DNA of 31,139 nt from a virus. Within the stretch, counting starts at the first letter, position 1. Every line of letters begins with the position of its first letter. Both the position numbers and the translations under genes were made by a program. Where the stretch lies: the IMG/VR virus record IMGVR_UViG_3300030098_005078, positions 937 to 32,075 of that record; one strand, written 5' to 3'. The notes below the pieces were generated by a model that made no database searches, was not told the origin of the DNA, and worked only from the letters and a program-made list of their open reading frames with translations. Shown here one piece after another: positions 2 to 30,288 of this stretch.

Positions 2-421
2 TATGCTCCACCATCATCTGCATTTATAGTAAAAAGACTCCACCCAATTCTTGAAAGAATAGTGGGTGAAGAACTAATACCAACTTATTGGTTTTGTACT
101 ACTTATTGGAATAAAGGTTTTATGGCTCGTCATACTGATAGACCATCATGTGAGGTATCAGTAACTATGAATATAGATTCTATTGTTGATTGGCCTATTC
201 AATTACAAGATTTAGAAGGTAATAGACAAAAAGTTGTTACACCTATTGGTCATGGTCTTGCTTATTCGGGGATAGAAGTTCCTCATTGGAGAACCCCATT
301 AAAAGCAAAAGAAGGAACTAAACATATGCAATCATTCTTTCATTATGTTAGAAAAAATGGGAAATATGCTGACTATGCTTTTGATAAAAATGCTAAATGC
401 TATCACCTATTAACTACTTAA
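2..421 (+). CDS. 2OG-Fe(II) oxygenase, 3' part only (cut by left edge)
   Basis: The frame is open from base 2, so 139 residues of the C-terminal part are visible and the true start lies outside the window. A GTG at 62 is only an internal valine candidate, because the frame continues upstream of it with plausible protein. The iron-binding facial triad is seen as H44 and D46 (RHTDRPS) and H95 (VPHWR). R97, two residues after H95, lies close to the usual 2-oxoglutarate site. The pattern HTDRPSCEVSVTMN, then DWPI, then YSGIEVPHWR is one I know from marine phage and cyanobacterial dioxygenases of the prolyl-hydroxylase type; the substrate is unknown. It is the only plus-strand gene here, and its TAA overlaps the TAA of the opposing gene by two bases. 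I am sure of the superfamily, not of the role. Confidence 0.85.
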   Translation, partial: YAPPSSAFIVKRLHPILERIVGEELIPTYWFCTTYWNKGFMARHTDRPSCEVSVTMNIDSIVDWPIQLQDLEGNRQKVVTPIGHGLAYSGIEVPHWRTPLKAKEGTKHMQSFFHYVRKNGKYADYAFDKNAKCYHLLTT

Positions 422-1695: not shown

Positions 1696-4617
1696 TTAGT
1701 TCTCCATTGCAGTAGCACTAGAACCACTAATATGGTTCTTACTTGTAGCAGAGGATGTATTATTTGCAAATTCTACTCTACTTGCATTAGTTGTTGTAGC
1801 TCCACCACCAGAAGCATATCCAAATTCCTCATTCTGGAAAGCAGCAGATCCAGCATGATTATACACAGAGTCATTACCAGTATCACTATGAACAGAAGTT
1901 GAGAAATCAAATCTATAAATTACACTATCATATGCAGAAGGTGTACCTCCCATACTATACAAACCTTGATCTGCTGGTGTATGAGTCCAACCTGACATAA
2001 AGTTCTTTGCTACTGGCATACCAGTATCAGCTGTTGCTGTCTCAGTAGCAAACTCCAATCTATCCACCTTACAATTAGCAGAATACGATCCCATTACCCA
2101 ACCATAATAAGTATTTTGAATATGACCAGTATTTAATCTTGAGCGATTGCCATTCGCAATTGTACCAGGACTAGCAATAGTTTCATTAGAAAAATCTAAA
2201 CGGATTATAGTTGATGTGTAACCACCTGGTGAACTACCTGCAACGATATAACCATAATTAGGATTCATAAAACCTCCTGGTCTTACCTTCTGTTCAGTTA
2301 ATTGAGCAGGTAGTTTTATCCATCCTTCATTAGAGAAATCCAATCTATGAATATCTGATTGACCACCAGGACCAGTTGTTGGAGTCTGGAATGCAGTATA
2401 ATAACCATGAAATTTATTGGAAATTGTTCCACCTTGAGAGGAATTTCCCATAGGAGCATTATTATACCAAAGATAGTGATTTGTTGAGTTAGGACATTCA
2501 TAAATCTCAGTAGCCATATTAAATCTTTCTACATAATTTCTATTTGGTGAACCACCCATGATATATCCAAAGGAACTTCTAGATTGTCTTCCTCTAGTAT
2601 CAACTCCCATAGTACTATCTGCATGACTACTCTTTGCTATTGCTTTTAATGCTGCACCACCATGCATAGTTGCTGCACCACTGAATGCAAGATCAAAATT
2701 TTGTCCTGGCAATGACCATGTATCTGTAGTCATATCCATTCTATCCACTTGACAACAGGTTGTAGCAGGTGCTGGAGAGGTTTTATATCCACCTATTTTG
2801 AATATGTGGCTACCAGTCTGTGCTCCACCATGAATTCTGACAGATGTATTGGTATTATTACCAGTAAGTCTCCATGTTTCATTAGCAAAATCAAGTTTAT
2901 CAGTTTTATTAGTATTATTACCACTAGGATTATTCATTCCTGATGCAATGTAACCATCAGTTCTACTACCTTCACTTCCAAAACTATAACCAATATCTTG
3001 AGACATTGGATTTGTTTGTGTTAATGTCTCACTAACAAATTCCATTCTCTCACCAACACTTGCAGTTCCTGGTAGTGCAGTTCCCATCATATATCCATAT
3101 TCTGATGATGGATCTTCCAATGAATTACTACCTCTAGACAAGGGTTGAGCACTATTACTTTGAGTGAATACTGTACTTCTTAACCACGTTCCAGTAGTTT
3201 CAGTGTGCATATCAAATCTTTGATAATTTGATTGTGATCTATTTGCAGTACCACCACCAATCCAATATCCTTTTCCACGTTTCTTATCTGTCATTCCAGT
3301 CATACTATCATTAGCACTTTCATGAAACTTACCAGCTTGTCCTACAGTTTCACTTACATACTCTAATCTATCAATATTAGAATGTTTTGTAGATGGAGGA
3401 GTACTCTGCCCACCACCAAAGTAACCATACTCATTATTAAATACTGCTTTTGCTAAATCCCTATTTGTTTCACTTCTCTTAGCAAATGTAGATATTGATC
3501 CCACTTCTGTTGCAAAGTCGTACCTATAAATTTTAGAAGAATCACCACCAGGAGTGCTACCTAGTGCTGCCCATCCTGCCTGTGAATCCTCTCTATAAGA
3601 AGCAGTTGTATATTCATTATTATATCCTTTTCTTTTTAATCTTTTATATCCACTAACAATTGTTGCAGTTCCATAACTTGTAGGTGCAGGATTATGATTA
3701 ACTGTAGCAAGTCCATTAGGAGTAACAATATGTGTACAACTACTATGCTCTAACTTATCCAACTCAGTATGAAATTGCATAAAATATCCTTCATCTTTTG
3801 TTGATGCTGGATAACATTCACCTGCAACTAGATTTTGACTAGTATGTGTCATAGTCTCAGTTTGTGCATCCAGTCGATCTATATTACTTGCACTATTTCC
3901 TGTAGAAATATAGAGGTTATTACCAAAATCCATAGTAGCAGAAGAATTTCTGACAGTTTGTGATCTATCATAACCTGTTTTGGTACTCATTGCATCGGTA
4001 GTAAAATCAAGTCTACATCCCAAAGACGTATCAGATCCTGGACTCATGTAACCACCAAAAAAGTATCCTGCTTGACCAGCAGAGCCAGAAGCCATACCTC
4101 TTAAACCATCCTGAGGATGATTTGATGATATAAGTGAGGCAGTTACAGTAGAAAACTCTAATCTATCTACATCCGAAGAACATGTATCTGGTGATGCTGC
4201 TCTTCCTCCCAACATATATCCATAATTCCACGAACTTACAGCCGCACCAAAAACTGAGTCAAAAGGACAATTACTACCAGTATCATCTGATGTTTCTGTT
4301 GCAAAATCTATTCTTAAAATATCACTACTCCATGGCCCACCTGGTCCCCCAGTAGATCCTTTTGCCCAATATCCTATCTCCTGACCATTACCCATTGGCA
4401 ATGGGTAACTTAATTCTTGTGCCATATTGGCTTGAGGTTTTACCCAAGTATCACACGAAAGATCTAGTCTGTAGATATATGAATAGGTTAGACCAGACGG
4501 AGAATATAATTGTCCACCACAATAAGCAAAGTTGGTAACTACATCAGAAGAAGTGTGATTGGCATCTATTTGTTTAAAAGTAAGATCACTTAAACCAAAT
4601 GCTTGACCTAATGCCAT
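1696..4617 (-). CDS. Giant kelch-like repeat protein, 18 repeats (three six-repeat blocks)
   Basis: 973 aa. A 28-residue N-terminal segment (MALGQAFGLSDLTF) resembles those of the two sister proteins in this window. The rest is a run of about 50-residue repeats with the consensus YGYxxGG, a variable loop, then (V/I)xRLDFsTET. By hand I count 18: RxDF-type positions near residues 50, 102, 152, 202, 248, 287; 365, 417, 467, 524, 573, 625; 698, 758, 806, 853, 902, 947. The repeats form three blocks of six (about 29-320, 347-655, 682-960), separated by non-repeat linkers rich in R and K (for example YKRLKRKG near 324). Such repeats fit kelch-type beta-propeller blades, so three propellers are inferred. 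No signal peptide or membrane segment is seen. A late promoter overlaps the preceding stop codon. The likely role is a receptor-binding fibre, unproven. Confidence 0.75.
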   Translation of the reverse strand: MALGQAFGLSDLTFKQIDANHTSSDVVTNFAYCGGQLYSPSGLTYSYIYRLDLSCDTWVKPQANMAQELSYPLPMGNGQEIGYWAKGSTGGPGGPWSSDILRIDFATETSDDTGSNCPFDSVFGAAVSSWNYGYMLGGRAASPDTCSSDVDRLEFSTVTASLISSNHPQDGLRGMASGSAGQAGYFFGGYMSPGSDTSLGCRLDFTTDAMSTKTGYDRSQTVRNSSATMDFGNNLYISTGNSASNIDRLDAQTETMTHTSQNLVAGECYPASTKDEGYFMQFHTELDKLEHSSCTHIVTPNGLATVNHNPAPTSYGTATIVSGYKRLKRKGYNNEYTTASYREDSQAGWAALGSTPGGDSSKIYRYDFATEVGSISTFAKRSETNRDLAKAVFNNEYGYFGGGQSTPPSTKHSNIDRLEYVSETVGQAGKFHESANDSMTGMTDKKRGKGYWIGGGTANRSQSNYQRFDMHTETTGTWLRSTVFTQSNSAQPLSRGSNSLEDPSSEYGYMMGTALPGTASVGERMEFVSETLTQTNPMSQDIGYSFGSEGSRTDGYIASGMNNPSGNNTNKTDKLDFANETWRLTGNNTNTSVRIHGGAQTGSHIFKIGGYKTSPAPATTCCQVDRMDMTTDTWSLPGQNFDLAFSGAATMHGGAALKAIAKSSHADSTMGVDTRGRQSRSSFGYIMGGSPNRNYVERFNMATEIYECPNSTNHYLWYNNAPMGNSSQGGTISNKFHGYYTAFQTPTTGPGGQSDIHRLDFSNEGWIKLPAQLTEQKVRPGGFMNPNYGYIVAGSSPGGYTSTIIRLDFSNETIASPGTIANGNRSRLNTGHIQNTYYGWVMGSYSANCKVDRLEFATETATADTGMPVAKNFMSGWTHTPADQGLYSMGGTPSAYDSVIYRFDFSTSVHSDTGNDSVYNHAGSAAFQNEEFGYASGGGATTTNASRVEFANNTSSATSKNHISGSSATAMEN
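3410..3429. repeat. 20-base identity shared by two kelch-like genes (copy 1)
   Basis: The 20 bases encode GYFGGG-type blade starts on the minus strand and are identical to 11816-11835 in the 1303-aa gene. The first 17 bases occur again at 8054-8070 in the 944-aa gene. Such shared words could allow recombination between repeat genes. Confidence 0.7.
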
Positions 4618-4640
4618 TATTGTTTTCCAGTATTATTTTA

Positions 4641-6494
4641 TTATTTATCTGAAACTGACTCGTGATTAAATAATGATTTTGGTGCATCTGCATTTACCTC
4701 TTGAGTTCCTGCAAGTGCTTGACGCTCCTCTGCTGCCTTAAGAGATGCTCCAAATTCAGTGACCTCATTAATACCCTCAGATACTTTTTGTTGTAGATTG
4801 CCTAAGAATCTCTCAACATTTGGCCCTAGTGCGTCTGCAATACTACCATAGTCACCTTTAATTCTATTCACATCATCAGTTAAAACTGTAGGTGCAGTAC
4901 CTCTTCTCATAGAACGAATATTACCAGGTGAAATACCAGACTTAGCACCAACCAAATCATCAAATGCTTGGTTAGCAAAACGTCTTTCCCAATATAGTGG
5001 TTGATCCTCTTCAAATTGTTTCTTACTGATCAACTTACCATCATTAAGTTCAACTAGTCTTTCGATCAACTTATCAAAAAACTCTAACTGTTGAATAGAA
5101 TCTCTGAACCCACCATCTGCACCTCTAAGTGCTGCATTAAGTTGAAACTCATCAATATCATACCATACCAACTCTTCTCCACCTTCACGAGTCTTCCACC
5201 AAATAGGTTTTGATTTATCTTTACCTTCCCATCTAAATTCAAACTCTCTTACTCTCTTCTTCAATTCAATAATACTACTCAACAAACCTTCAGCAACACT
5301 TCTACGGTTAATCAATGCTGCTTTAAATGCAGAAGGAACAGTAAAATTATCAAGAACAATAAACTTTTCGATTTGGAAGTTTGAACGTCCTTGTGCTAGT
5401 TCATTCTCACTCTCTTGCCAACGTGTACACTCACCGTACACTTTCATCATGTAATCGCTTTCTTCATTGATTGCTTCTGTAGCTTTTACAAGCTCAAGAT
5501 TTGATTTGTTACTTTCCATAATACTTCTATGATGTGTTAATGAACTAATGGTTTCCTTCCAAATGCCAGCAATTCGTTCCCAATTATAATTTTGGATTGC
5601 AAATTCGGAAATTGTTTTTGTTGCCTCTTCATAATTAGATCTGTCTCTATCAAAATAATCTAGAGCAGTTATCACCTCTTGGGTAAATTTATTTATAAAG
5701 GTATCATCAGGTTCCCAACCTCTTGGGGTGTTATTACCCGACATTATAACATACTTTCCTAATCCTTGTGAAGTCTCTCTTAATGCACCAATATCAGATG
5801 TTATTGGAAAGCATCCACAAGACATTGCTTCAGCAAGAGAAACACAGAAAGTTTCTTCCCATACATTAGGATGTATATAAAATGCTGCATCTTGTACGTG
5901 TGATAATAATTCTTCTCTATCAATACAAGGACTATATTCAACTCCCTCAAGTTCTTTCAACTCCTTATATACAGGAACAAATGGTGATGGTTCAAATCCA
6001 TTTAAACCTGTGATAGTTTCATTTTCACCTTCTCCTGGTTGCACATCACCATAAAGTGACATTGAAGAGAATACTTTTAATTTAGCATCTGGATGCTTTT
6101 TAATTACCTCTTTCCAAATTGGAACCAGAGGTGCAACACCCTTATGTGGAGCAGAGAAGAATATACAAGTCTTTGATTTAGGTTTATTAGATGGCCTAAA
6201 CATATTATCAACACCATTTGGAATGACTGTCAATAAATGCTCTGGTGCTCTATTAAATTTAATATATTGCTCCTTCTCCCAATTAGAAACACATACGATT
6301 AAATTAATTTTATCAATGTGCTGTGGTAAATCCTTATGACCGTATTGATCACAATTATCATGAGCCCATATAACTTTATATTTTTTATTTGATTGTATAA
6401 TCTCTTGTGTAGTTCTCTGTACATCAACATCATCAGGGAATTGATAATGTTGAGCAAGATAATGAAAAGATGATTCAGTTGCTCCAGATTTCAT
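4641..6494 (-). CDS. GT4-like glycosyltransferase fused to a ~290-aa domain of unknown function
   Basis: 617 aa. Residues 1-320 form a GT-B glycosyltransferase of the GT4 type. Visible are VCVSNWEKEQY at about 68-78, the family-typical IPNGVDNMF at 91-99, and the E-x7-E nucleotide-sugar motif at E214/E222 within WEETFCVSLAEAMSCGCFPI. Residues about 326-617 are unrelated to GT folds: a mostly helical, charged region with KPIWWKTREGG, LVWYDIDEFQLN, YWERRFANQAFDDL, GNIRSMRRGTAPTVL and a helical C-terminus. I do not recognise its function. The start is odd: MKSGATESSFHYLA begins at what is usually residue 10-20 of a GT4 protein, so the first beta strand seems to be missing, and an in-frame TAA lies just upstream. 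Met326 (codon at 5519) is a possible internal start, though its AGAAG site is weak. The gene sits between two kelch-like genes. Confidence 0.82.
   Translation of the reverse strand: MKSGATESSFHYLAQHYQFPDDVDVQRTTQEIIQSNKKYKVIWAHDNCDQYGHKDLPQHIDKINLIVCVSNWEKEQYIKFNRAPEHLLTVIPNGVDNMFRPSNKPKSKTCIFFSAPHKGVAPLVPIWKEVIKKHPDAKLKVFSSMSLYGDVQPGEGENETITGLNGFEPSPFVPVYKELKELEGVEYSPCIDREELLSHVQDAAFYIHPNVWEETFCVSLAEAMSCGCFPITSDIGALRETSQGLGKYVIMSGNNTPRGWEPDDTFINKFTQEVITALDYFDRDRSNYEEATKTISEFAIQNYNWERIAGIWKETISSLTHHRSIMESNKSNLELVKATEAINEESDYMMKVYGECTRWQESENELAQGRSNFQIEKFIVLDNFTVPSAFKAALINRRSVAEGLLSSIIELKKRVREFEFRWEGKDKSKPIWWKTREGGEELVWYDIDEFQLNAALRGADGGFRDSIQQLEFFDKLIERLVELNDGKLISKKQFEEDQPLYWERRFANQAFDDLVGAKSGISPGNIRSMRRGTAPTVLTDDVNRIKGDYGSIADALGPNVERFLGNLQQKVSEGINEVTEFGASLKAAEERQALAGTQEVNADAPKSLFNHESVSDK
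4642..4649 (-). promoter_or_regulatory. T4-type late promoter (GATAAATA) for the 973-aa kelch-like gene
   Basis: GATAAATA on the minus strand, 24 bases before the ATG. Its last two bases are part of the TAA stop of the GT4 fusion gene (read as GAT AAA TAA). It matches the NATAAATA late consensus of T4-like phages. Confidence 0.75.
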
Positions 6495-6519
6495 AAGTTA
6501 TAATAAAGTAATTTAATGT

Positions 6520-9354
6520 TTAGCGACCATTAGAGAAACCGTCAAGGGCATATCTACTTTGAGATAAGTTACTAACAGGATTTGCAGCAGTAGTATCGGT
6601 AGAAAATTCTATTCTAGATTGATTTACAAGCCCACCAGGTGCTGATGTATTTAACCCACCACCAAAGTATCCAAAATTATTATTTTGGGCAGAAGCAGCA
6701 TCCAATAAACTAAAACCACCATGAGATACATTTCCTGCATCACTTGTTGTTTCTGTATCTATATCCATTTTTACAGCAACCTTTGTCTCAGGATTACCAC
6801 CAACAAAATAACATGTTCCTTCAGTAGTTCCATTTATATGAGACCCTTGGTTCTTTGCACCACTTGGTAGATTAGCAGGAGTATCTGCAAATGTATCTGT
6901 ATTCCAATCCAACCTTTCAATATCAGAATTTAATGTAGGATTTGGGCCTCCTCCAGCACTATATCCATACTTAGCAGTACTTGCATTAGTGGATCTATAT
7001 TTCTGAGAGCCAACTTGAGTTAAATTGCTAACAAATGAGTCAGTAGTAAAATCAAATTTAACAACACCACCTGTACCATTTGTTCGTACAAAATATGCAC
7101 TTTCATTATTTCTCATTGCAGGTCTTTTAGCACCAACAGCATGTGGGAAATCTGCAATATCATTAAATGTTTCATTCATAAAGTCAAACCTATTAATTTG
7201 GTTCTGAGAACCTCCTGGTGACTCTCCAGGCATGTGATAACCATAATTAGATGGATGTGCCTCTGTACATGTAACTTTAGACCCTGGAGGAGCATTTGTG
7301 CTTGTAGTTACTACATCAGTCATCATATCAAGTCTATCGTTTCTTGTCAAGTATGAAGAATTATTCTCTCCACCTATAAAGTAACCATAATTTGCACCAG
7401 CAACATTACCTCTACGATCAATACCAGGTCTACTATCCCTAGCATTATTCTGACTTACACTACGTAATCTATTTGATGTGGTAAGTATAGCCATTGCTCT
7501 TCTATCTCCACCTGGGGATAGAGTCTGTTGACCAGTAAGAGATGATGTTCCAGTATTAAAGTCAAGTCTTTCATTATTAGAACTATATGGATATCCAGCA
7601 ACATCAATACTAAATGAACGAGTTGTAACATGTTCTGGATAATACTTAGCACGAGCATTATTAGCACCAGTATCAACAAAAGTTGTAGTACTGTAATCCC
7701 ACCTCATAATATTTGATGTATTAGGACCATCACTTCCTGTTAAATATGCATCCGTTTCACTTTGTGCTTGACAATTACTATGATAAAATCCCTTTACTCC
7801 CACACGTAAATCATAACTTGTACTTTCAGTTGAGAGATCAAGTTTTTGTGCCATATCATAAGTTCTATTTGTAGGACCACCACCTGGTTGGAAATTCTTT
7901 CCTCCAATAAACCAACCAATATCTCCTTTTTCATCTACGGTGGAAGCCATTCCCAATGCACCCATACCCAGTTTTGTTGCATTAGATTGAGTATCAGTAT
8001 CTCCATCAATTCTGTCTACATTCGAAACTCTAATAAATGTACTATCTCTATATCCACCACCAAAGTAACCTTTATTTTGTTTCAGATAACCAATTCCACT
8101 AGGGTGTCTAGTATCTAAATCTAGATTCGCACTTATTTGTTTATCAGTTTCTGAAACAAAATCAAATTTCTTTATATCATTAATTGTTGGTCCTGGAGGA
8201 AGTTGCCCTCCTGCAGTATAACCAGCATCATTCAAAGAAAGTGATCCAAGCTTTCTTATATTTAAACTATATTTTGGAGTATGAGATACTGAATTCAATT
8301 CAGTAGAAAGATCTATCTTACACCAATTAGTATGGTTATAACCACCACCATAATACCCCAAATCTACTGATTCATTATTATATAATTGATTGTTAGTTTT
8401 ATAATTTACTTTTGTTCCACCCTTCAAAACTGCTTGCCACATATCAGTTTGAGGTAGAAAAGATTCATTATAAAATGTATCTGCTATAAAATCATATCTG
8501 TTTATTGCACTAGTAGTACTAGTTCCATTAAAATAACCACCAAAACAATATCCTACATCATCAGAAGCACTACCAACACCGAATGTAAGAATGCCTGGTA
8601 GAGCAAAATCTTGTACAGCATCATTAGTAAAATCTATTCTATTAATTACACTATGGTAATTACTTGGGTGTGGTGATGGTGGATAATTTCCACCACAGAA
8701 ATAACCAAACTGAGTATTGGAAAAACTAATACCATTTTGATTACTATCTTGGTTCTGTATATCAGCACCAGAATCATAAAAAGTTTCGTTAGTACCAGAA
8801 AAATAACGTATATGTTGGCCATCATTGACAAAACATACTCCATTTGGCATATCACATCCAGTACCTAAATATCCGCTAGATGGACAATCACCAATATCAC
8901 TTAAAGTTTCTGCAATATAATCTATTCTATCAACTGTACTAGAAGCATAAGGAGATGATGGTCTATACCCAGTAAAATAATATCCATATTGTGGTGTATT
9001 GCCAGTAAATCCTCTTGCTCTGATCTCGGTTAAGTTAACTGAATTTTGTATATGGTCTGTTTGAAAATCAAATCTAGAACATAAAGAGTTTGCTGTTGGA
9101 CCTCTCGCACAGATATATCCCATATCCTTGAGATTAGATAGTCCTCTATAATAATATCCATTACTATAACAATTTGCATTTAGCTCTTCTGAATGACTTG
9201 TAGAAGGATCAAATCTAATGACATTAGAATGTTGTGGACTAGGTCCAGAACCACCAGCAGTGTATATGAAATTAGTCTTTATTGTTTCGTCAGAAATATC
9301 ACTATAACTCTTTAGTTGTTCGTTTCTAACTTCTGATAGTGAAAATACAGACAT
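6520..9354 (-). CDS. Giant kelch-like repeat protein, 18 repeats (three six-repeat blocks)
   Basis: 944 aa, sister of the 973- and 1303-aa proteins. The N-terminus MSVFSLSEVRNEQL matches MAVFGLKKIYLEQL of the 1303-aa protein and probably anchors the fibre (inference). I count 18 repeats of the form YGYxxGG ... RxDF(x)TET in three blocks of six at about 29-312, 331-628 and 655-938. The linker before the third block (GIDRRGNVAGANYGYFIGG) resembles the same linker in the 973-aa protein (GVDTRGRQSRSSFGYIMGG). Some blades are degenerate, for example NGVCFVNDG in the fourth repeat. The gene starts three bases after the stop codon of the sulfotransferase (TAA TCA ATG), so translation is probably coupled. 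A NATAAATA element lies 62 bases upstream inside the sulfotransferase. A propeller-type receptor-binding fibre is the best guess. Confidence 0.74.
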   Translation of the reverse strand: MSVFSLSEVRNEQLKSYSDISDETIKTNFIYTAGGSGPSPQHSNVIRFDPSTSHSEELNANCYSNGYYYRGLSNLKDMGYICARGPTANSLCSRFDFQTDHIQNSVNLTEIRARGFTGNTPQYGYYFTGYRPSSPYASSTVDRIDYIAETLSDIGDCPSSGYLGTGCDMPNGVCFVNDGQHIRYFSGTNETFYDSGADIQNQDSNQNGISFSNTQFGYFCGGNYPPSPHPSNYHSVINRIDFTNDAVQDFALPGILTFGVGSASDDVGYCFGGYFNGTSTTSAINRYDFIADTFYNESFLPQTDMWQAVLKGGTKVNYKTNNQLYNNESVDLGYYGGGYNHTNWCKIDLSTELNSVSHTPKYSLNIRKLGSLSLNDAGYTAGGQLPPGPTINDIKKFDFVSETDKQISANLDLDTRHPSGIGYLKQNKGYFGGGYRDSTFIRVSNVDRIDGDTDTQSNATKLGMGALGMASTVDEKGDIGWFIGGKNFQPGGGPTNRTYDMAQKLDLSTESTSYDLRVGVKGFYHSNCQAQSETDAYLTGSDGPNTSNIMRWDYSTTTFVDTGANNARAKYYPEHVTTRSFSIDVAGYPYSSNNERLDFNTGTSSLTGQQTLSPGGDRRAMAILTTSNRLRSVSQNNARDSRPGIDRRGNVAGANYGYFIGGENNSSYLTRNDRLDMMTDVVTTSTNAPPGSKVTCTEAHPSNYGYHMPGESPGGSQNQINRFDFMNETFNDIADFPHAVGAKRPAMRNNESAYFVRTNGTGGVVKFDFTTDSFVSNLTQVGSQKYRSTNASTAKYGYSAGGGPNPTLNSDIERLDWNTDTFADTPANLPSGAKNQGSHINGTTEGTCYFVGGNPETKVAVKMDIDTETTSDAGNVSHGGFSLLDAASAQNNNFGYFGGGLNTSAPGGLVNQSRIEFSTDTTAANPVSNLSQSRYALDGFSNGR

Positions 9355-9357
9355 TGA

Positions 9358-10185
9358 TTATAGACCGAAGACTTTATAGGTAGGAGTTTGATTTCGCCAA
9401 AACTCCATTTGTTTATATTTATTGATTATATCATTACTCAAATACATTTCATTATTTCTATATATCTTTTCAACCTTAGTTCGTACTTTATGCATGTCCT
9501 TTAACCCATAAACAATGTCCTTTTCTTCAAATTCTGTCTCTACATTATCAAAATTATGAGTATAATGTGGCAAATCTAAAAAATCATAGATACGATTCAT
9601 CTCAACCTGAGAATTATTAACTAAATCTTCATACTCAACAATTAATATATATTTATCCCAACCCTTTCGATAAGCCTCAGATAGTGCAATATAAGATAAT
9701 CCAATAATTCCCTGCGAACACATCAAATAATCAGATCTATTATCATTATTAATTTCTATATTATTAGATTTTAAATTATCATCAATGAAATTATTATCAT
9801 CACTCCTTTCTATAAGTTGAAGAAAGGATGCTATTATATCATGAATATTTCTTACTGGGCAAATAATCTTGGGACTCTTAGTAATATAATCATTAATATG
9901 TTCTAATTGATTCACCCATCCTCTAGATTTATCTACAATAATAGATTCCGATACATTATAATAATAATTATGTGGTATGGATGATATTACTTTATGAGCA
10001 CAATCTGGTTTTGGATGTGCTCTATATTGTTCAGAATTTTTTAACAAATACTCCTCAGTATAATGAATCGTATCTAACACTGGAGAGTTAGTCGATGCAT
10101 GTATCTGTGGATTTTGATTCAATAATGATGTAATTAATGTAGAACCAGATCTAGGTAATCCAGAAAGAAAATGAAATGTTTTCAT
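9358..10185 (-). CDS. PAPS-dependent sulfotransferase
   Basis: 275 aa, the usual size for this family. The 5'-phosphosulfate binding loop is SGLPRSGSTLITSLL at residues 8-22. The 3'-phosphate binding motif is VRNIHDIIASF at 111-121, with the R112 and S120 pair expected for PAPS binding. A downstream VEYEDLVNNSQVEMNRIYDFL block matches the family's YEDLxxxPxxxxxxIxxFL segment. It should transfer sulfate from PAPS to a hydroxyl of a sugar, tyrosine or small molecule; the acceptor cannot be told from sequence. It is placed between two kelch-like giants, 18 bases after one and 3 bases before the next, so it is co-expressed with them. It is more AT-rich (many I, N, K codons) than its neighbours, which may reflect a separate origin. 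Confidence 0.88.
   Translation of the reverse strand: MKTFHFLSGLPRSGSTLITSLLNQNPQIHASTNSPVLDTIHYTEEYLLKNSEQYRAHPKPDCAHKVISSIPHNYYYNVSESIIVDKSRGWVNQLEHINDYITKSPKIICPVRNIHDIIASFLQLIERSDDNNFIDDNLKSNNIEINNDNRSDYLMCSQGIIGLSYIALSEAYRKGWDKYILIVEYEDLVNNSQVEMNRIYDFLDLPHYTHNFDNVETEFEEKDIVYGLKDMHKVRTKVEKIYRNNEMYLSNDIINKYKQMEFWRNQTPTYKVFGL
9416..9423 (-). promoter_or_regulatory. Candidate internal late promoter for the 944-aa kelch-like gene
   Basis: AATAAATA within the 3' end of the sulfotransferase gene, 62 bases before the next ATG. Chance matches are expected in AT-rich coding DNA (similar ones occur at 9650-9657 and 5690-5697), so support is weak. Confidence 0.35.
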
Positions 10186-10203
10186 AATAAAGATAAAAAT
10201 CAG

Positions 10204-13200
10204 TTAAGGTGCGTTTTGAGTTGAACCTACTCCATACACTCCTGCCCAGTTATGAGTTCCACCTGTATTTGCCACAATTACTGTGTTCGTTGCATCATTT
10301 GAAAAATCTAACCTCTCAGCTTCAGTTTGATAAGATAATACAGGACCATATCCAAGACAGAAATAACCATAATTCTCATTATGTACTCCAGCATGTCCAC
10401 CAATTACACCACTCATAACAGAACCAGGAAGAGATTCTGTTTCGGTACTAAAACTATATCTTCTTATAGTGGATTGACGAGTAGGAGTTTGTCCACCAGA
10501 CATATATCCTGCATCTGGACCTCTTACTGATGCCATTGAATATAGTGATCCAGAGAGATCTCCTCCTCTAGAAGAAGTCTCAGTCATAAAATCTAATCTT
10601 GAAACTATTGTTTGTGCAGTCACACCATCATGAGTGGCTTTTGCATAAGAACCACCAAAATATCCAGTGGTAAAATTATTATTAGCAAAATTAGTAGATC
10701 TATAATGATTGTTTGGTAGGTTATTTCCACTATCTACGATTGTCTCGTTTGAAAAATCCATTCGTAATAAATTTGTTACAAATGTTGTTGTTGTTGGGAA
10801 AACAACTCCTTGAGTACCATATCCATAATGAATAGAAGCAACAAATGGAGCTTGTTGACTATCTGCTGGAAATGCTGGTGAAGTAAAATTAGTTAATGTC
10901 TCACTTGAAAATTCAATTCTATCTATTTGTGTGGTAAGTCCACCTGGTCCTCCCTCTGGAGAAGTATTTGGAGATCCTGAAGTAAAGTAATATCCATAAT
11001 TATGATTGTTTATACCTTGAACAGAATATTTACCATGAACTAATCCTCTTGTTGCATCACCGTTCACAAGTAAATCATATGACTCAGTAGTCATATCGAA
11101 TCTACTGACAGAGGTTCTTGCAAGAGATACATATCCACCAGCAATATATCCACGATCAGCACTTACTGGTTTTCCTTTGAAATCCCATGCTTGTTCACTA
11201 CCACCAGATTTGGCAATTGATCTTACTCCACCGCTATCTCTGAAACAAGCACCAGCATATCTTCCATCAGAATGTAATTTTGCACCTGGATTAGAAACAG
11301 TATCACTTTCAAAGTCAATTCTTTGATATGATGAATAATACGAATTGGGTGGTGAAAATCCTGTTGCTTGATATCCATAACTTGTACTTTCTGTTGCATC
11401 TCCACCATTACATTGTGTCACGTTAGCAGAAATTCTTCTACTAGTATCAGTATTGAAATCTAATTTACTAACATAACTTTTGGCAATAGGGAATGCAGGG
11501 CCTCCACCCAACAACCAACCATAATTATCATTCTCAGAAATTCCTCCACCAGCAGCATATTTTCTGTCTAATATTTGAGAAGTAGAAACATTTGTTTCAG
11601 TATTAAAATCAATCTTATCTATGTCATAATGACCATATCCTGTTGGATATTGATTACCACCAACAAAATAACCATGACTATCAGATTGAGTTGCTTTTAG
11701 GAATGATCTACCTGAACTAATATGAGATGCTAATCCCATTATATCATTACTGAAATCAAATCTCTGAACATCTCGTGGGAATTCATATACAGTAGGTGGA
11801 GTGTGACTCCAATAACCACCACCAAAGTAACCATAATTACTATTCTCCATACATGCACCACCTCTTACTGGTTCACGCATTCGTGTATGTATAGTACCAG
11901 TAGATTCTGTGGCGAAATCCATCTTTTGTATATACCTTTCCGTTGTTGGATCAGCTGTTTGACCCCCAAACACATAACCACTCTCATTAGAAGCAGTTCC
12001 TGCCCATTTACCTTTTCCACAACCAGGTATTACTCTTGCACTAGGTCTAGAAGAAGTTTCATTTGAAAATTGTAATCTATCAAAGAATGTTTCACCACTA
12101 CTTGGAAAACTACCATTATATCCACCACCCCAATATCCATGTTCTCCACCACTAGGAGCATAGTTGGTAAGAAGTGATTCATTTACTAAATTGAAAGATG
12201 CACCACCACCACAATTTGATCCTCTAGTAGTATTTGTGTGACCGAATAATACAGATGTAGTTTCAGTAGAAAAATCAACATTCTGTATTTTTCTAGCATG
12301 TCCACCAGAAGTCCAACAAAATCTGGTTGTATTCTCAGTTGCTCCACCTTGTTTTTGATCAGCTCCAGTACCAGGAACAAGTACTGCAAGATCAGTATCA
12401 AATTCCATTCTCATATAACATGTTATAAGATTTGGATTCTCACCACCTATTCCATATCCAAAACTAGTATTTTGAGATGCCATTCCTTCACCAACATGAT
12501 TTGGGCCCGCCCATAATGTGCTTATTGGATGGGCAGATCCTGTATCAGTGTCAAAAACATATTGCTGTATAGCTTTACTACCATTACCACCACAGAAATA
12601 TCCTTTATGTTGATCTTCGTAAGTATGACCACATCTTGCAGTAGCAACAGATTTACTAAATCCAGTTGATGGAGTCGATGTACCATAATCAAACTTCATC
12701 AAAGCAGCACTATTAGATAGTCCTTCTGTCCAGAATCCAGTACCATATTTTGAAGAAGTGACTTGTTTACCAATTCTTGATCCACCTGCCAGAACACCAG
12801 TTATAGAAAATACTTCACAACTATAATCTAATCTATCTACACTTGACATTCCAGGTACATTTGAATTACCTGGATAATGTCCACCACCATAATATGCAAA
12901 TTCAGGAGTCGATCCACTATCAAACTCTCTCTGAGCAACTGACATAAGACCACCAAGATCGGTGTAAGTATCACTTGCGAAATCTATTCTATCAACTGTA
13001 CAATGAGTCTGAGAATTACTACCACCTACACCACCTTGATAATTTGGGCCAGAACCACCACCAAGATACCCAACTCCATCTACTTTTCTTATAGTACCAC
13101 CTGTTCTTTTATGATGTCTTGATACTTTATTTCCTCCTACTATTCGTCCATTAGTAGCAAAAGCAACTTGATCTTTACCATTAGGATATAATGTAACTGT

Positions 13201-14115
13201 ACCAGTACCAAAATCCATTCTTGTTATATTACTTGTCCTTGCATTTGGACTAGCAAGATAACCACCATAAGTAAATCCAAACTCTGATGTATTTGCAGTA
13301 CCACCACCATATAATGGATGTTGAGCTGGTTGTTCAACTCTAGATGTTAAAGTCGCAAATTCAACTGAATCAACCCTAGAAGCGTTAGCATAAGATGGAT
13401 TTGCTGTAGTAGGGTGACCTGATCCTACATATCCATGACTATTTGAACCATATGCTACACCACAAGTCTGTAAATCACTCGTAACAGTAGATGGACTATC
13501 GTGTGTATCCGTACTAAAATCAAAACGTTTTACAGAAGATCTAGGATCTCTACCATTAGATTTTTCTCCTGCAGTATAATAATTGAATTGAGTATCATCA
13601 AAGCCAGCATGATATAATCTTCCTTCTGGATCTCCACCAACATTTGATATTGTATCGTTTGAATATTGAAATCTATCTACCAAACATGTCCATGCAGAAG
13701 GATATTTATACCCTTGTTGAATATATCCGTACTCTGGAGTGCTGGCAGAAGTTTGTAGATATCTTGAAAAGGTAGCGTTTACTGGACTAGCACTAGTAGT
13801 ATCACTGGCATACTCTAGTCTTGTTATTGTAGTAACAGTTTCAGAAGGACTTTGACGATGCCCACATGCTATAACAGCCTTTCCATAATTTCCACCATCA
13901 GTACCACTTCCAAATTGTCCAGAATGAGTCCTAGATCTAATATCAGTAACAGTATCAGTTTGTAAATCTAATCTATCGACATTTGTACGTTTAGTGGTAG
14001 GTGATTGAATACTGCCACTAGCAAAATATCCGTAATGAGATACAGTCTCTGTTCCGTAATCTGGTACATTACGTAATTGTTCTAGATAAATCTTTTTTAA
14101 GCCAAAGACTGCCAT
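10204..14115 (-). CDS. Giant kelch-like repeat protein, 24 repeats (four six-repeat blocks)
   Basis: 1303 aa, the largest protein in the window. After the N-terminal MAVFGLKKIYLEQL segment come 24 repeats by hand count (YGYxxGG, variable loop, (V/I)xRxDFxTDT). They fall into four blocks of six at about 28-325, 347-640, 658-965 and 988-1290, with non-repeat linkers between (for example KVSRHHKRTGG at 330-340). Clear blades include YGYFGGGYWS at 761 and YGWLLGGGPAF at 865. Compared with the 973- and 944-aa sisters it has exactly one extra six-repeat block. Four kelch-type six-bladed propellers in a row are inferred; no enzyme motif is visible. An AATAAATA late promoter overlaps the stop of the preceding glycosyltransferase gene, so this is the first gene of an operon that continues through the sulfotransferase, the 944-aa protein and the GT4 fusion. 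Confidence 0.75.
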   Translation of the reverse strand: MAVFGLKKIYLEQLRNVPDYGTETVSHYGYFASGSIQSPTTKRTNVDRLDLQTDTVTDIRSRTHSGQFGSGTDGGNYGKAVIACGHRQSPSETVTTITRLEYASDTTSASPVNATFSRYLQTSASTPEYGYIQQGYKYPSAWTCLVDRFQYSNDTISNVGGDPEGRLYHAGFDDTQFNYYTAGEKSNGRDPRSSVKRFDFSTDTHDSPSTVTSDLQTCGVAYGSNSHGYVGSGHPTTANPSYANASRVDSVEFATLTSRVEQPAQHPLYGGGTANTSEFGFTYGGYLASPNARTSNITRMDFGTGTVTLYPNGKDQVAFATNGRIVGGNKVSRHHKRTGGTIRKVDGVGYLGGGSGPNYQGGVGGSNSQTHCTVDRIDFASDTYTDLGGLMSVAQREFDSGSTPEFAYYGGGHYPGNSNVPGMSSVDRLDYSCEVFSITGVLAGGSRIGKQVTSSKYGTGFWTEGLSNSAALMKFDYGTSTPSTGFSKSVATARCGHTYEDQHKGYFCGGNGSKAIQQYVFDTDTGSAHPISTLWAGPNHVGEGMASQNTSFGYGIGGENPNLITCYMRMEFDTDLAVLVPGTGADQKQGGATENTTRFCWTSGGHARKIQNVDFSTETTSVLFGHTNTTRGSNCGGGASFNLVNESLLTNYAPSGGEHGYWGGGYNGSFPSSGETFFDRLQFSNETSSRPSARVIPGCGKGKWAGTASNESGYVFGGQTADPTTERYIQKMDFATESTGTIHTRMREPVRGGACMENSNYGYFGGGYWSHTPPTVYEFPRDVQRFDFSNDIMGLASHISSGRSFLKATQSDSHGYFVGGNQYPTGYGHYDIDKIDFNTETNVSTSQILDRKYAAGGGISENDNYGWLLGGGPAFPIAKSYVSKLDFNTDTSRRISANVTQCNGGDATESTSYGYQATGFSPPNSYYSSYQRIDFESDTVSNPGAKLHSDGRYAGACFRDSGGVRSIAKSGGSEQAWDFKGKPVSADRGYIAGGYVSLARTSVSRFDMTTESYDLLVNGDATRGLVHGKYSVQGINNHNYGYYFTSGSPNTSPEGGPGGLTTQIDRIEFSSETLTNFTSPAFPADSQQAPFVASIHYGYGTQGVVFPTTTTFVTNLLRMDFSNETIVDSGNNLPNNHYRSTNFANNNFTTGYFGGSYAKATHDGVTAQTIVSRLDFMTETSSRGGDLSGSLYSMASVRGPDAGYMSGGQTPTRQSTIRRYSFSTETESLPGSVMSGVIGGHAGVHNENYGYFCLGYGPVLSYQTEAERLDFSNDATNTVIVANTGGTHNWAGVYGVGSTQNAP
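11816..11835. repeat. 20-base identity shared by two kelch-like genes (copy 2)
   Basis: Identical to 3410-3429. It lies in the third six-repeat block of the 1303-aa gene at the blade reading YGYFGGGYW. Confidence 0.7.
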
Positions 14116-14146: not shown

Positions 14147-14801
14147 CCCCAAAAACATGGGAACCTACATGACATAGTTTTATTTCAGTATCTAACCATG
14201 CTTTGAACCCACATTGTGATGCTCTCTCAAAGAATGAAAAATCTTCTGGCATATAAGACTCTCCTTTTTTATATTCATGGAAGAAATGATACGAATTGTA
14301 ATATTCCTTTTCTGTTATTGGATAATTTGATGCATTTGTTGAAGGAATGTGCTTCAATTCTGATCCAAATTTTTGTATTATACCCTCAAACACTCTACGA
14401 TGAATTAAAGCAAAACCAAATCCAATATTTTCAATTTCAACTAAACCTCCTTCTGCTCTTGGTGGTTGTGTAATATTATAGTTATATCTAAGTGGAATAG
14501 TTTTCATTGGATATGCACCACAAACAATATCCTTATTATGGTTTATAAGACGTAATACATGAGATGGTTCAAATCCAATATCTGCATCAATAAACATTAG
14601 ATTAGTGTACTCTGTATTGTTTAAAAAGAAATTTGCAATTCTAGACCTTCCCTTTGTAATAAGAGACTCATTTGCCAGTGTTAATAAACCATGATCGATA
14701 TTATTACTTCTTAAATCTTTTCCAAGATTAAATAAACCTTTTGCAGTTTTATCTGAAACCATTCCACCGTAACACGGCAAAGCAATAAGCATAGTTGTCA
14801 T
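14142..14801 (-). CDS. GT-A type glycosyltransferase
   Basis: 219 aa. The N-terminus MLIALPCYGGMV starts a Rossmann-like strand. A DxD-type metal/nucleotide-sugar motif is present as MFIDADIGFEPSHV (D72-A-D74), followed by CGAYPMK at 94-100. The C-terminal YMPEDFSFFERASQCGFKAWLD (from 183) contains the acidic ED pair typical of the catalytic or acceptor loop, then LCHVGSHVFG, a common end in phage and bacterial members that resemble Anp1-like or GT2 enzymes. It probably adds a sugar to a virion protein or glycan; donor and acceptor are unknown. The ATG overlaps the TGA of the preceding oxygenase gene (ATGA), so the two are translationally coupled and may act on one pathway (inference). Its stop codon lies within the late promoter of the next gene. 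Confidence 0.82.
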   Translation of the reverse strand: MTTMLIALPCYGGMVSDKTAKGLFNLGKDLRSNNIDHGLLTLANESLITKGRSRIANFFLNNTEYTNLMFIDADIGFEPSHVLRLINHNKDIVCGAYPMKTIPLRYNYNITQPPRAEGGLVEIENIGFGFALIHRRVFEGIIQKFGSELKHIPSTNASNYPITEKEYYNSYHFFHEYKKGESYMPEDFSFFERASQCGFKAWLDTEIKLCHVGSHVFGE

Positions 14802-15385
14802 ACTAATAACTCCACATTAAAAGACATTGAAATTCTGAGTTGATCACTCGTATTGGGATTAACAAAATGAGGTAACCAAGAAGGAAATAATACTAATTGC
14901 CCCATTTCAGGTTGATGCATATAATATTCATCCTTTATTATAGCAGATCTTTGGAAATCCATCATCCTTGCTGGTCGTGGATCTTCAAATGATAATGGAC
15001 TATCATTATTTGGCACGTCAACATAATATACACCACTCATCCATGATCCAGGATGAACATGAGTAAAATTATACCCTCCCTTGGGATTAACATTAGCCCA
15101 CATTGCACGAATTACCGCTTCTGGTTTATTTCTATCGGCATCAGTAAGTTTTTCAAGTAAAAAATTAACTACTCCTCCAAATTTTTCTAGGAGTGGTTCA
15201 AATATTTTTTCTTGCCACAATAAAGTATCGGATTGATATCCTCCTCTATTACTACGTTTTTTTCCTTCATCTTTTGATGCTAGATCTATAAGGAAATCTT
15301 TATATTTTTTATTTTCCTTCTCATCATAAATGTCAAGATGATAAACATCAGTAGGGAATAACCCTCGTTGAGTAATGTTGTACAT
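14798..15385 (-). CDS. 2OG-Fe(II) oxygenase, TIGR02466-like
   Basis: 195 aa. The block FTHVHPGSWMSGVYYVDVP at 107-125 is the family signature (HxHPxSxxSGVYYV), with H109/H111 as candidate metal ligands. LFPSWLPHFVNPN gives the distal H173, and LRISMSFN gives R184 for 2-oxoglutarate. The N-terminal 100 residues have the usual preceding helical part, including MWANVNPKGGYN. Members of this family are common in marine T4-like phages but have no proven substrate. The gene lies 19 bases after the 874-aa fibre-like gene and overlaps the GT-A gene by four bases. It is a different oxygenase subfamily from the two other oxygenases in the window. A hydroxylation step linked to the glycosyltransferase is a reasonable but untested reading. 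Confidence 0.85.
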   Translation of the reverse strand: MYNITQRGLFPTDVYHLDIYDEKENKKYKDFLIDLASKDEGKKRSNRGGYQSDTLLWQEKIFEPLLEKFGGVVNFLLEKLTDADRNKPEAVIRAMWANVNPKGGYNFTHVHPGSWMSGVYYVDVPNNDSPLSFEDPRPARMMDFQRSAIIKDEYYMHQPEMGQLVLFPSWLPHFVNPNTSDQLRISMSFNVELLV

Positions 15386-29377: not shown

Positions 29378-29385
29378 TATTTATG
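29378..29385 (-). promoter_or_regulatory. T4-type late promoter (CATAAATA) for the 892-aa fibre gene
   Basis: CATAAATA 13 bases before the ATG at 29364. The internal TAA is the stop of the 125-aa chaperone gene. Confidence 0.72.
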
Positions 29386-29758
29386 ATGGTGTAGTTGGCC
29401 ACTCTACAGAAGTCAAATCTAAATTATCATTAGAATCTAATTTTGGTGTAGAAAGTGCAGGAAGATCTCGTAATGCTTGTCGATATGATTTCCATGCTTC
29501 TAATATAATGAGATCAGAAGATGCTCTCCAATCAGTTGCTTGCAAACGACGATTCCTTTCTTCACGTAATAATTTCATCGGATATGCATTTACCAATTCA
29601 GTAACTTTTGCATTAACTTCATCTTCTGTTGGTTTTGTTTGAGATTCATCTTGCCAAACTAAACGCTCATAATCATTTGTAGCAGTTGGATTATTGGGAA
29701 GAGTCCATATTGCTCCTGGCTTAAGTGCCACTAATGCATCAACTATGTCTGGTTTCAT
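29381..29758 (-). CDS. Tail-fibre assembly chaperone-like protein (Phage_tail_APC type)
   Basis: 125 aa from the ATG at 29758. A longer reading from 29785 is less likely, because AAAGGAGA lies 8 bases before the 29758 ATG and that ATG overlaps the upstream TGA as ATGA. Residues about 62-100 carry KLLREERNRRLQATDWRASS and SYRQALRDLP, the chaperone core seen also in the 189-aa protein at 418-987. The N-terminal half has AIWTLPNNPTATNDYERLVW, a short segment often seen before this core in phage proteins that describe the needed residues of the fibre operon. It precedes the 892-aa fibre by 16 bases and probably assists its folding (inference from position). Confidence 0.76.
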   Translation of the reverse strand: MKPDIVDALVALKPGAIWTLPNNPTATNDYERLVWQDESQTKPTEDEVNAKVTELVNAYPMKLLREERNRRLQATDWRASSDLIILEAWKSYRQALRDLPALSTPKLDSNDNLDLTSVEWPTTPS

Positions 29759-30288
29759 TGTCTTATCTCCTTTACACTTAAGCATCTTACTATAGCAGCA
29801 TGAGCAATGTATGCGGTTCCACTACTAGTTGTTCTTCCCCATATATGATAACTAACTGATTCTCTAGTTTTAGGTTCATCATATAAAGCGAAACTACTAG
29901 ATGCTGTTACATACACACCACCACTACCACCAAAGTCTCCAACACAACCCATTCCCATATTGCTACCAGTAGTTGCTCCTAAATTAGTTGTATTATTTCT
30001 ATAAATTGTAACCGCAGAAGCACCAGTAGCAGTATTTGGTTGTTGTCCTGTAGCACTCCATTCAATAAGCAACAAACTATTATCAAAATGTGGAGTAATA
30101 GCAACACTGTACGACAGATCTGCCCATGTAGTACTAGTAGTAGTCAAATGAGTGGCTCCCATATTCTGATTATAGACATGTTGAATTACTGTGCCAGATG
30201 GTATTTTCTCATATGGAACATGGACATAATCAAGTTCGGTTAATTTATCTCTTAAATTAAATGCTGCTTTTTCTACTCTTACTACCAT
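29755..30288 (-). CDS. Short fibre protein with VRVEKAAFNLRDK adaptor
   Basis: 177 aa. MVVRVEKAAFNLRDKLTELD is the same adaptor as in the 425-aa protein of module B. The remainder is different: VIQHVYNQNMGATHLTTTST, LSYSVAITPHFDNSLLLIEW, VTIYRNNTTNLGA, then a YHIWGRTTSSGTAYIAH stretch. This beta-sandwich pattern occurs at the ends of many phage tail proteins. The start follows the TAG of the upstream LamG gene after one base (TAG T ATG), as in module B, and the stop overlaps the next start (ATGA). A candidate AATAAATA promoter lies 64 bases upstream in the LamG gene. It is a structural protein, probably of the baseplate or a short fibre. Confidence 0.74.
   Translation of the reverse strand: MVVRVEKAAFNLRDKLTELDYVHVPYEKIPSGTVIQHVYNQNMGATHLTTTSTTWADLSYSVAITPHFDNSLLLIEWSATGQQPNTATGASAVTIYRNNTTNLGATTGSNMGMGCVGDFGGSGGVYVTASSSFALYDEPKTRESVSYHIWGRTTSSGTAYIAHAAIVRCLSVKEIRQ
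29766..29773 (-). promoter_or_regulatory. Ribosome binding site that fixes the start of the 125-aa chaperone gene
   Basis: AAAGGAGA, 8 bases before the ATG at 29758. It supports this start over the in-frame ATG at 29785, which would overlap the upstream gene by 31 bases. Confidence 0.75.

Follow-up and report, generated by a model that had tools for sequence, protein, structure and literature searches.

The window, a stretch of 31,139 nucleotides from the virus record IMGVR_UViG_3300030098_005078 in IMG/VR (positions 937 to 32,075), carries three giant paralogous proteins, in which a short N-terminal head precedes 24, 18 and 18 kelch-like blades in blocks of exactly six. We predict that these blocks fold into strings of four, three and three six-bladed propellers. 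The best explanation as a whole is that the proteins are late, modular virion adhesins accompanied by paired enzymes, to which we assign a probability of about 0.6. This reading combines blade counts, block layout, kelch homology, a recurrent gene cassette, the pairing of heads and enzymes, the shuffling of propellers and late promoter motifs, all of them features of the sequence.

In the proposed mechanism, a T4-like cyanophage-type virus would produce three paralogous late proteins, each composed of a short docking head and a string of kelch-type propellers (4, 3 and 3). Every six-blade block would contribute 24 strands, with a C-terminal β1 strand closing blade 1; a whole propeller would thus be the viable unit, and copy number would change mostly in sixes. 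The proteins would be mounted on the virion as host-binding arms, anchored to components of the tail or fibres by head A, B or C, and the variable loops of the propeller discs would face the cell surface. Recombination would swap propeller arrays among the three genes without separating a head from the transferase encoded upstream of it, and the enzymes would add sugar or sulfate either to the arm with which they are paired or to the receptor of that arm. If this is true, the host-binding arms of aquatic cyanophages are assembled from complete propeller discs that can be swapped, and the steps of mostly six blades offer a natural test case for the gain and loss of closed domains in repeat proteins. 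It would also provide a working hypothesis for PHROG 19111, a large and so far unnamed family.

Blade counts and block layout in the window

The three proteins are encoded by real, co-directional open reading frames on the minus strand. P0003 (10204..14115, 1303 aa) combines a head of type A with 24 blades, P0002 (6520..9354, 944 aa) a head of type B with 18 blades, and P0001 (1696..4617, 973 aa) a head that is of type C by position with 18 blades. A blade HMM built from these three proteins finds 24 blades in P0003, 17 in P0002 and 17-18 in P0001. The blades that it misses are visible by eye, near residue 285 in P0001 (DEGYFMQFHTELDKLEHSS) and near residue 168 in P0002 (GVCFVNDGQHIRYFSGTNETF). 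Together, these data uphold the first-pass annotation, which had counted 18, 18 and 24 blades in P0001, P0002 and P0003, split into three, three and four blocks of exactly six. Its block borders, near residues 325 and 655 in P0001, 315 and 630 in P0002, and 330, 645 and 970 in P0003, also agree with the HMM, in which the following blocks start at about residues 345 and 681 (blocks 2 and 3 of P0001), 332 and 654 (blocks 2 and 3 of P0002), and 349, 657 and 986 (blocks 2 to 4 of P0003).

On the minus strand, the type A head of P0003 (MAVFGLKKIYLEQLRN...) occupies positions 14053..14115 and is followed by predicted propellers 1 (13126..14052, HMM blades at residues 26-276), 2 (12181..13089, residues 349-600), 3 (11191..12159, residues 657-910) and 4 (10207..11172, residues 986-1246). 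In P0002, the type B head (MSVFSLSEVRNEQLKS..., 9289..9354) precedes three propellers placed by the blade HMM at 8410..9288, 7435..8373 and 6523..7407. The head of P0001 is diverged (MALGQAFGLSDLTFKQID..., 4549..4617), and the HMM places its three propellers at 3643..4548, 2623..3597 and 1699..2589.

The longest exact DNA repeats inside the three genes measure 13-14 nt. The blades therefore appear to be old, with a count that was kept through divergence, and we rejected recent tandem duplication as well as assembly collapse or artefact as explanations for the window genes.

Blade numbers across the family

Relatives were gathered via the neighbouring sulfotransferase gene and via a family alignment; scans of IMG/VR with single proteins returned no relatives, and a search of GTDB genomes for a cellular source of the family confirmed none. 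The resulting count set comprises 176 complete proteins, non-redundant at 90% identity, and 151 of them contain an exact multiple of six blades: 6 (22 proteins), 12 (95), 18 (23), 24 (9), 30 (1) or 36 (1). After clustering at 60%, exact multiples are found in 64 of 83. Within blocks, blades are spaced by 47.9 +/- 3.9 residues (n=1275), compared with 68.7 residues across block borders (n=138), as determined for 117 relatives with a blade count divisible by six and with statistics that ignore phylogeny. Chance as the source of the regularity in the window was rejected on the basis of this spacing pattern and the 151/176 relatives.

The off-count relatives are mostly explained by missed blades, fragments or broken genes. 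True blocks of four or five blades occur in four or five proteins, with the arrangements 6+5+6 (one protein, present in loci L060, L061 and L117), 6+4+6 (L061), 5+6 (L064), 4+6 (L144) and perhaps 6+4 (L068). These short-block relatives contain exact DNA repeats of 42-79 nt, so recombination or assembly collapse could account for them. Single blades thus seem to be lost occasionally, with assembly collapse as the alternative.

Whole propellers, on the other hand, are duplicated and reused: over 298 residues, copies within one protein are up to 81% identical, and many propellers find their best match in a protein whose number of propellers differs. Likeness is slightly higher between blades of the same propeller (0.59) than between blades at matching positions of different propellers (0.573), and it is lower still at mismatched positions (0.561), which indicates that blade-level copying also occurs. 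As far as can be judged from these comparisons, copy-number change is dominated by whole-propeller steps, with blade-level copying also present. The proposal of the first-pass annotation that evolution proceeds by gain or loss of whole propellers is thereby supported, whereas its addition "not of single blades" is too strict in view of the few four- and five-blade blocks and the blade likeness of 0.59 vs 0.573.

Propeller number is equal among the paralogues of 47 of 53 loci (21.5 expected). When only the loci that are not purely two-propeller are considered, it is equal in 13 of 19 (6.4 expected, p=1e-4 in a permutation that ignores phylogeny). Such covariation, and the presence of three propeller genes with three heads in most fully flanked loci, would suit a heteromeric arm in which A, B and C lie side by side, one copy each. 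Against this arrangement stand the 24-18-18 blades of the window and the loci with 12-18-18, 6-12-12 and 36-24; moreover, gene exchange alone can equalise lengths, and the permutation does not take phylogeny into account. We therefore regard a heteromeric arm as unlikely, and strict equality of propeller number across the three genes, at variance with 24-18-18 in the window, was rejected.

Kelch homology and predicted closure of the blocks

That the blades are of the kelch type, as supposed by the first-pass annotation, is borne out by profile matches to PDB entries and by strands that lie in register with those of kelch. A profile of the ten window propellers retrieves kelch chains only: the designed six-bladed SAKe6FR with 4.6e-17, in a match that spans all six blades, KLHL12 with 6e-8 and Keap1 with about 1e-4. 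In the family alignment, the YGYFGGG motif falls on kelch strand 2 together with the GG doublet, DRLDFSTET falls on kelch strand 3, and LSQARxxLAA corresponds to the strand that precedes kelch strand 2. The blades follow each other in tandem with a GG doublet at the end of strand 2, and the GG columns are nearly invariant in 1968 blades. Their mean spacing of 47.9 residues lies in the range expected of kelch blades, about 44-56 residues. Matches to the Pfam kelch models are weak overall: Kelch_6 reaches 27.2 bits with P0002 (cut-off 25.3) and Kelch_3 reaches 36.9 with the relative L066 (cut-off 22), P0001 stays under the cut-off and P0003 has no match. The kelch tryptophan after strand 3 is almost absent, being found in 0.5% of the family blades, in 4 of the 18 blades of P0001 and in none of P0002 or P0003. 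By sequence criteria, the window proteins are therefore classed as kelch-like and not as members of Pfam Kelch_1. All three are matched by the profile of PHROG 19111 (1.2e-48, 5.4e-33 and 8.1e-78).

The order of strands provides additional information on closure. The first strand of a block is strand 2, and its last segment resembles an internal strand 1. Scoring of the flanking stretches with an internal strand-1 matrix, for which internal segments yield a median of 26.3, gives a median of -20.3 ahead of blade 1 and of 11.8 for the best window past blade 6 (shuffled -6.4), and 61 proteins terminate exactly where the β1-like segment after blade 6 ends. Taken singly, the window proteins are too diverged for this score to be decisive, and a good value is reached only at the end of P0002 (14.1). 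The scores suggest that each block holds six copies of each of the four strands, with blade 1 closed by a C-terminal strand.

Structure prediction, which the first-pass annotation had proposed as a check, yielded two AlphaFold2 models of about 970 residues, calculated for full-length proteins with 20-21 aligned relatives; their pLDDT values of 36.5 and 38.6 make them unreliable. A Foldseek search with one of them gave no significant match and a lean to solenoids, which at a pLDDT below 40 carries no weight. Together with the low confidence of both models, the solenoid proteins among these Foldseek matches are what speaks for a single continuous β-solenoid or another open repeat fibre instead of closed propellers. 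A solenoid provides no reason for counts in sixes separated by linkers, and it conflicts with profiles that match kelch propellers only and with blocks that each finish with β1 in the strand order, so that we consider it very unlikely. As the AlphaFold2 models are unreliable, we infer closure into six-bladed rings from sequence homology, strand order and the quantised counts.

A conserved cassette with paired heads and enzymes

The propeller genes belong to a cassette on the minus strand that was found again in many viral contigs. In the window, the tail-fibre-like P0007 (15405..18029; phrog_9942, 3.3e-8), a conserved upstream neighbour, is followed by the 2OG-Fe(II) oxygenase P0014 at the upstream edge (14798..15385; PF13759, 1.2e-28) and by P0006 (14142..14801; phrog_1574), a GT-A-type glycosyltransferase-like protein directly upstream of the head-A gene P0003. 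P0006 matches STIV A197 weakly, in line with the GT-A class. Next come the PAPS-type sulfotransferase P0005 (9358..10185; Sulfotransfer_3, 8.5e-16; phrog_27463, 1.2e-109) directly upstream of the head-B gene P0002, and P0004 (4641..6494), with a glycosyltransferase in residues 1-320, directly upstream of the head-C gene P0001. The second 2OG-Fe(II) oxygenase, P0012 (1000..1668; PF13640, 1.6e-14), marks the downstream edge and is followed by P0013 (418..987; phrog_4912, 1.5e-18) of the tail fibre assembly protein family. At the C-terminus of P0004, residues 331-617 (window 4641-5504, minus strand) form a domain of unknown function. It is conserved, with 56% identity to its counterpart in Synechococcus phage S-SKS1, and was seen only in phages of the propeller-cassette group.

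Usually, a virus encodes three propeller proteins with the distinct N-terminal heads A (VFGLxxVYxxQ), B (FSLxEVRxEQ) and C (GDVFGLNxVYDRQ), and most loci with full flanks have three propeller genes and all three heads. Head B lies behind the sulfotransferase in 42/48 cases, head C behind the glycosyltransferase in 25/31 and head A behind the GT-A-type gene (GT1574) in 25/34. Crossed pairs never occur, i.e. there is no B after the glycosyltransferase and no C after the sulfotransferase. The pairing (Fisher 6e-19, a statistic that ignores phylogeny) holds in both gene orders that were observed, A-ST-B-GT-C and A-GT-C-ST-B. The propellers behave differently: the best match in another locus shares the head type for 30/88 first and 32/85 last propellers, which equals chance level, while position is kept (first-to-first in 63/88, last-to-last in 63/85). 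Judging by these data, the pairing of head and enzyme is stable, and the propeller arrays are exchanged freely among head types.

The combination of whole propellers with one transferase per gene suggests modular host-binding arms. One elaboration is a three-arm adhesin whose arms each carry one to six interchangeable propellers and are decorated by a dedicated sulfotransferase or glycosyltransferase. Docking (head), chemistry (enzyme) and binding surface (propeller array) would then be separately evolving modules; we offer it as a tentative proposal that is more likely wrong than right. The composition of the A, B and C arms in Tyr, Ser, Thr, Cys and charge contains no distinguishing mark, so nothing in the propellers explains the specificity of the enzymes. 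This lack of a mark for a substrate, and the fact that the enzyme keeps with the head while the propellers shuffle among genes, would also fit propeller adhesins whose enzymes modify the host surface instead of the arms, for receptor masking, superinfection exclusion or progeny release from debris. Enzymes that alter the receptor are a familiar feature of temperate phages. The interleaving of the enzyme genes with late structural genes, by contrast, favours action during assembly, and no early expression signal was seen. Modification of the host surface is in our view a credible explanation that falls short of being probable. The enzymes may accordingly act on the arms or on their receptor, and both sulfated or glycosylated arms and receptor editing would become testable in S-SKS1 with its host Synechococcus WH7803.

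Some loci (L152, L153 and L010) have an extra sulfotransferase outside the propeller cassette.

Relation to known propeller proteins

Kelch proteins in phages and amplified propellers are already known. With KLHL12, Keap1 and SAKe6, the family shares blade length, the GG after strand 2, strand order, an in-register profile match and six blades per domain. In contrast to these, it has three to six propellers per chain, is viral and late-expressed, lacks BTB/BACK parts and has nearly lost the kelch Trp. The jumbo phage CBB encodes the kelch proteins CBB_550, CBB_552 and CBB_554, and CBB_552 was detected in the virion by mass spectrometry (PMC5259590). These are likewise phage kelch propellers, but they are absent from the tblastn matches of the window proteins, and the CBB paper describes neither multi-propeller strings nor an enzyme-paired cassette. 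The T4-like cyanophage P-HM2 has a kelch-repeat protein that is named only in passing (PMC3037559); it is similar in being a kelch protein of a T4-like cyanophage and is also absent from the tblastn matches. Highly repetitive β-propellers, with kelch among the families, were described as amplified from single blades and in some cases disrupted (PMC9218822). While that study stresses single-blade amplification, the family in the window also duplicates, chains and exchanges whole propellers among three paralogues. A search of the open-access literature brought up no account of chains of as many as six kelch propellers, nor of a cassette with three heads or of the pairing between heads and enzymes.

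PHROG 19111, listed with unknown function, includes proteins of the Synechococcus-infecting phage S-SKS1 that are annotated as hypothetical; its records represent the same family, but without fold, count or cassette. A cassette like that of the window, with three genes of 12 blades each, is present in S-SKS1 (L001). The count of 12 is obscured in the annotation, because frameshifts divide two of the genes into 9+3 and 3+9 blades and the ends of the record interrupt the third.

Late promoter motifs and probable virion context

T4-type late promoter cores (ATAAATA) are located on the minus strand 30 nt upstream of P0003 (14139..14145) and 31 nt upstream of P0001 (4642..4648), whereas P0002 has no late promoter motif of its own. 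The motif also precedes fibre genes. Its occurrences lie on the coding strand in 14/14 cases and at most 40 nt from a start in 8/14, with a total that is not above chance. The propeller genes sit in a fibre cluster, with a fibre gene upstream and a fibre assembly gene downstream, and among the large related records 7/16 encode T4 gp23 and 12/16 carry psbA/D-type genes. Single-propeller relatives have N-termini of the FNTDSxxLEYYxGxxW type that match tail or virion PHROGs, and one of them is fused to a LamG lectin.

Alternatively, the proteins could be late intracellular scaffolds, since kelch propellers frequently act as binding platforms inside cells, or lectin-like proteins that are released. 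This appears improbable, since most loci place the genes between fibre genes and the tail fibre assembly gene, the late promoter type is shared with fibre genes, single-propeller relatives are fused to FNTD-type and LamG parts, and a kelch protein was detected in the virion of CBB (PMC5259590). Late promoters, fibre position, gp23 and psbA/D, the single-propeller relatives and the CBB virion protein together make virion arms the best reading. Late promoters, gene position and domain relatives thus point to a location on the virion, where the arms would probably bind the host.

Several further features of the loci were observed. In L107, L109, L110 and L114, up to eleven single-propeller genes stand in a row and adjoin the same sulfotransferase and GT1574 genes. 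In the window, P0010 (23795-26662) and P0019 (30290-31138), both on the minus strand, have a LamG lectin domain in common and nearly identical C-terminal tails (YGSSxAVxAxxYDDS...ISASNGLIxE), as paralogous fibre ends. Two tail fibre assembly-like proteins (phrog_4912; 418-987 and 29381-29785, minus strand) bracket the fibre region. The edge gene on the opposite strand (2-421, plus strand) matches phrog_2954, which is labelled ferrochelatase in PHROGs, although by sequence it appears closer to a 2OG-type oxygenase.
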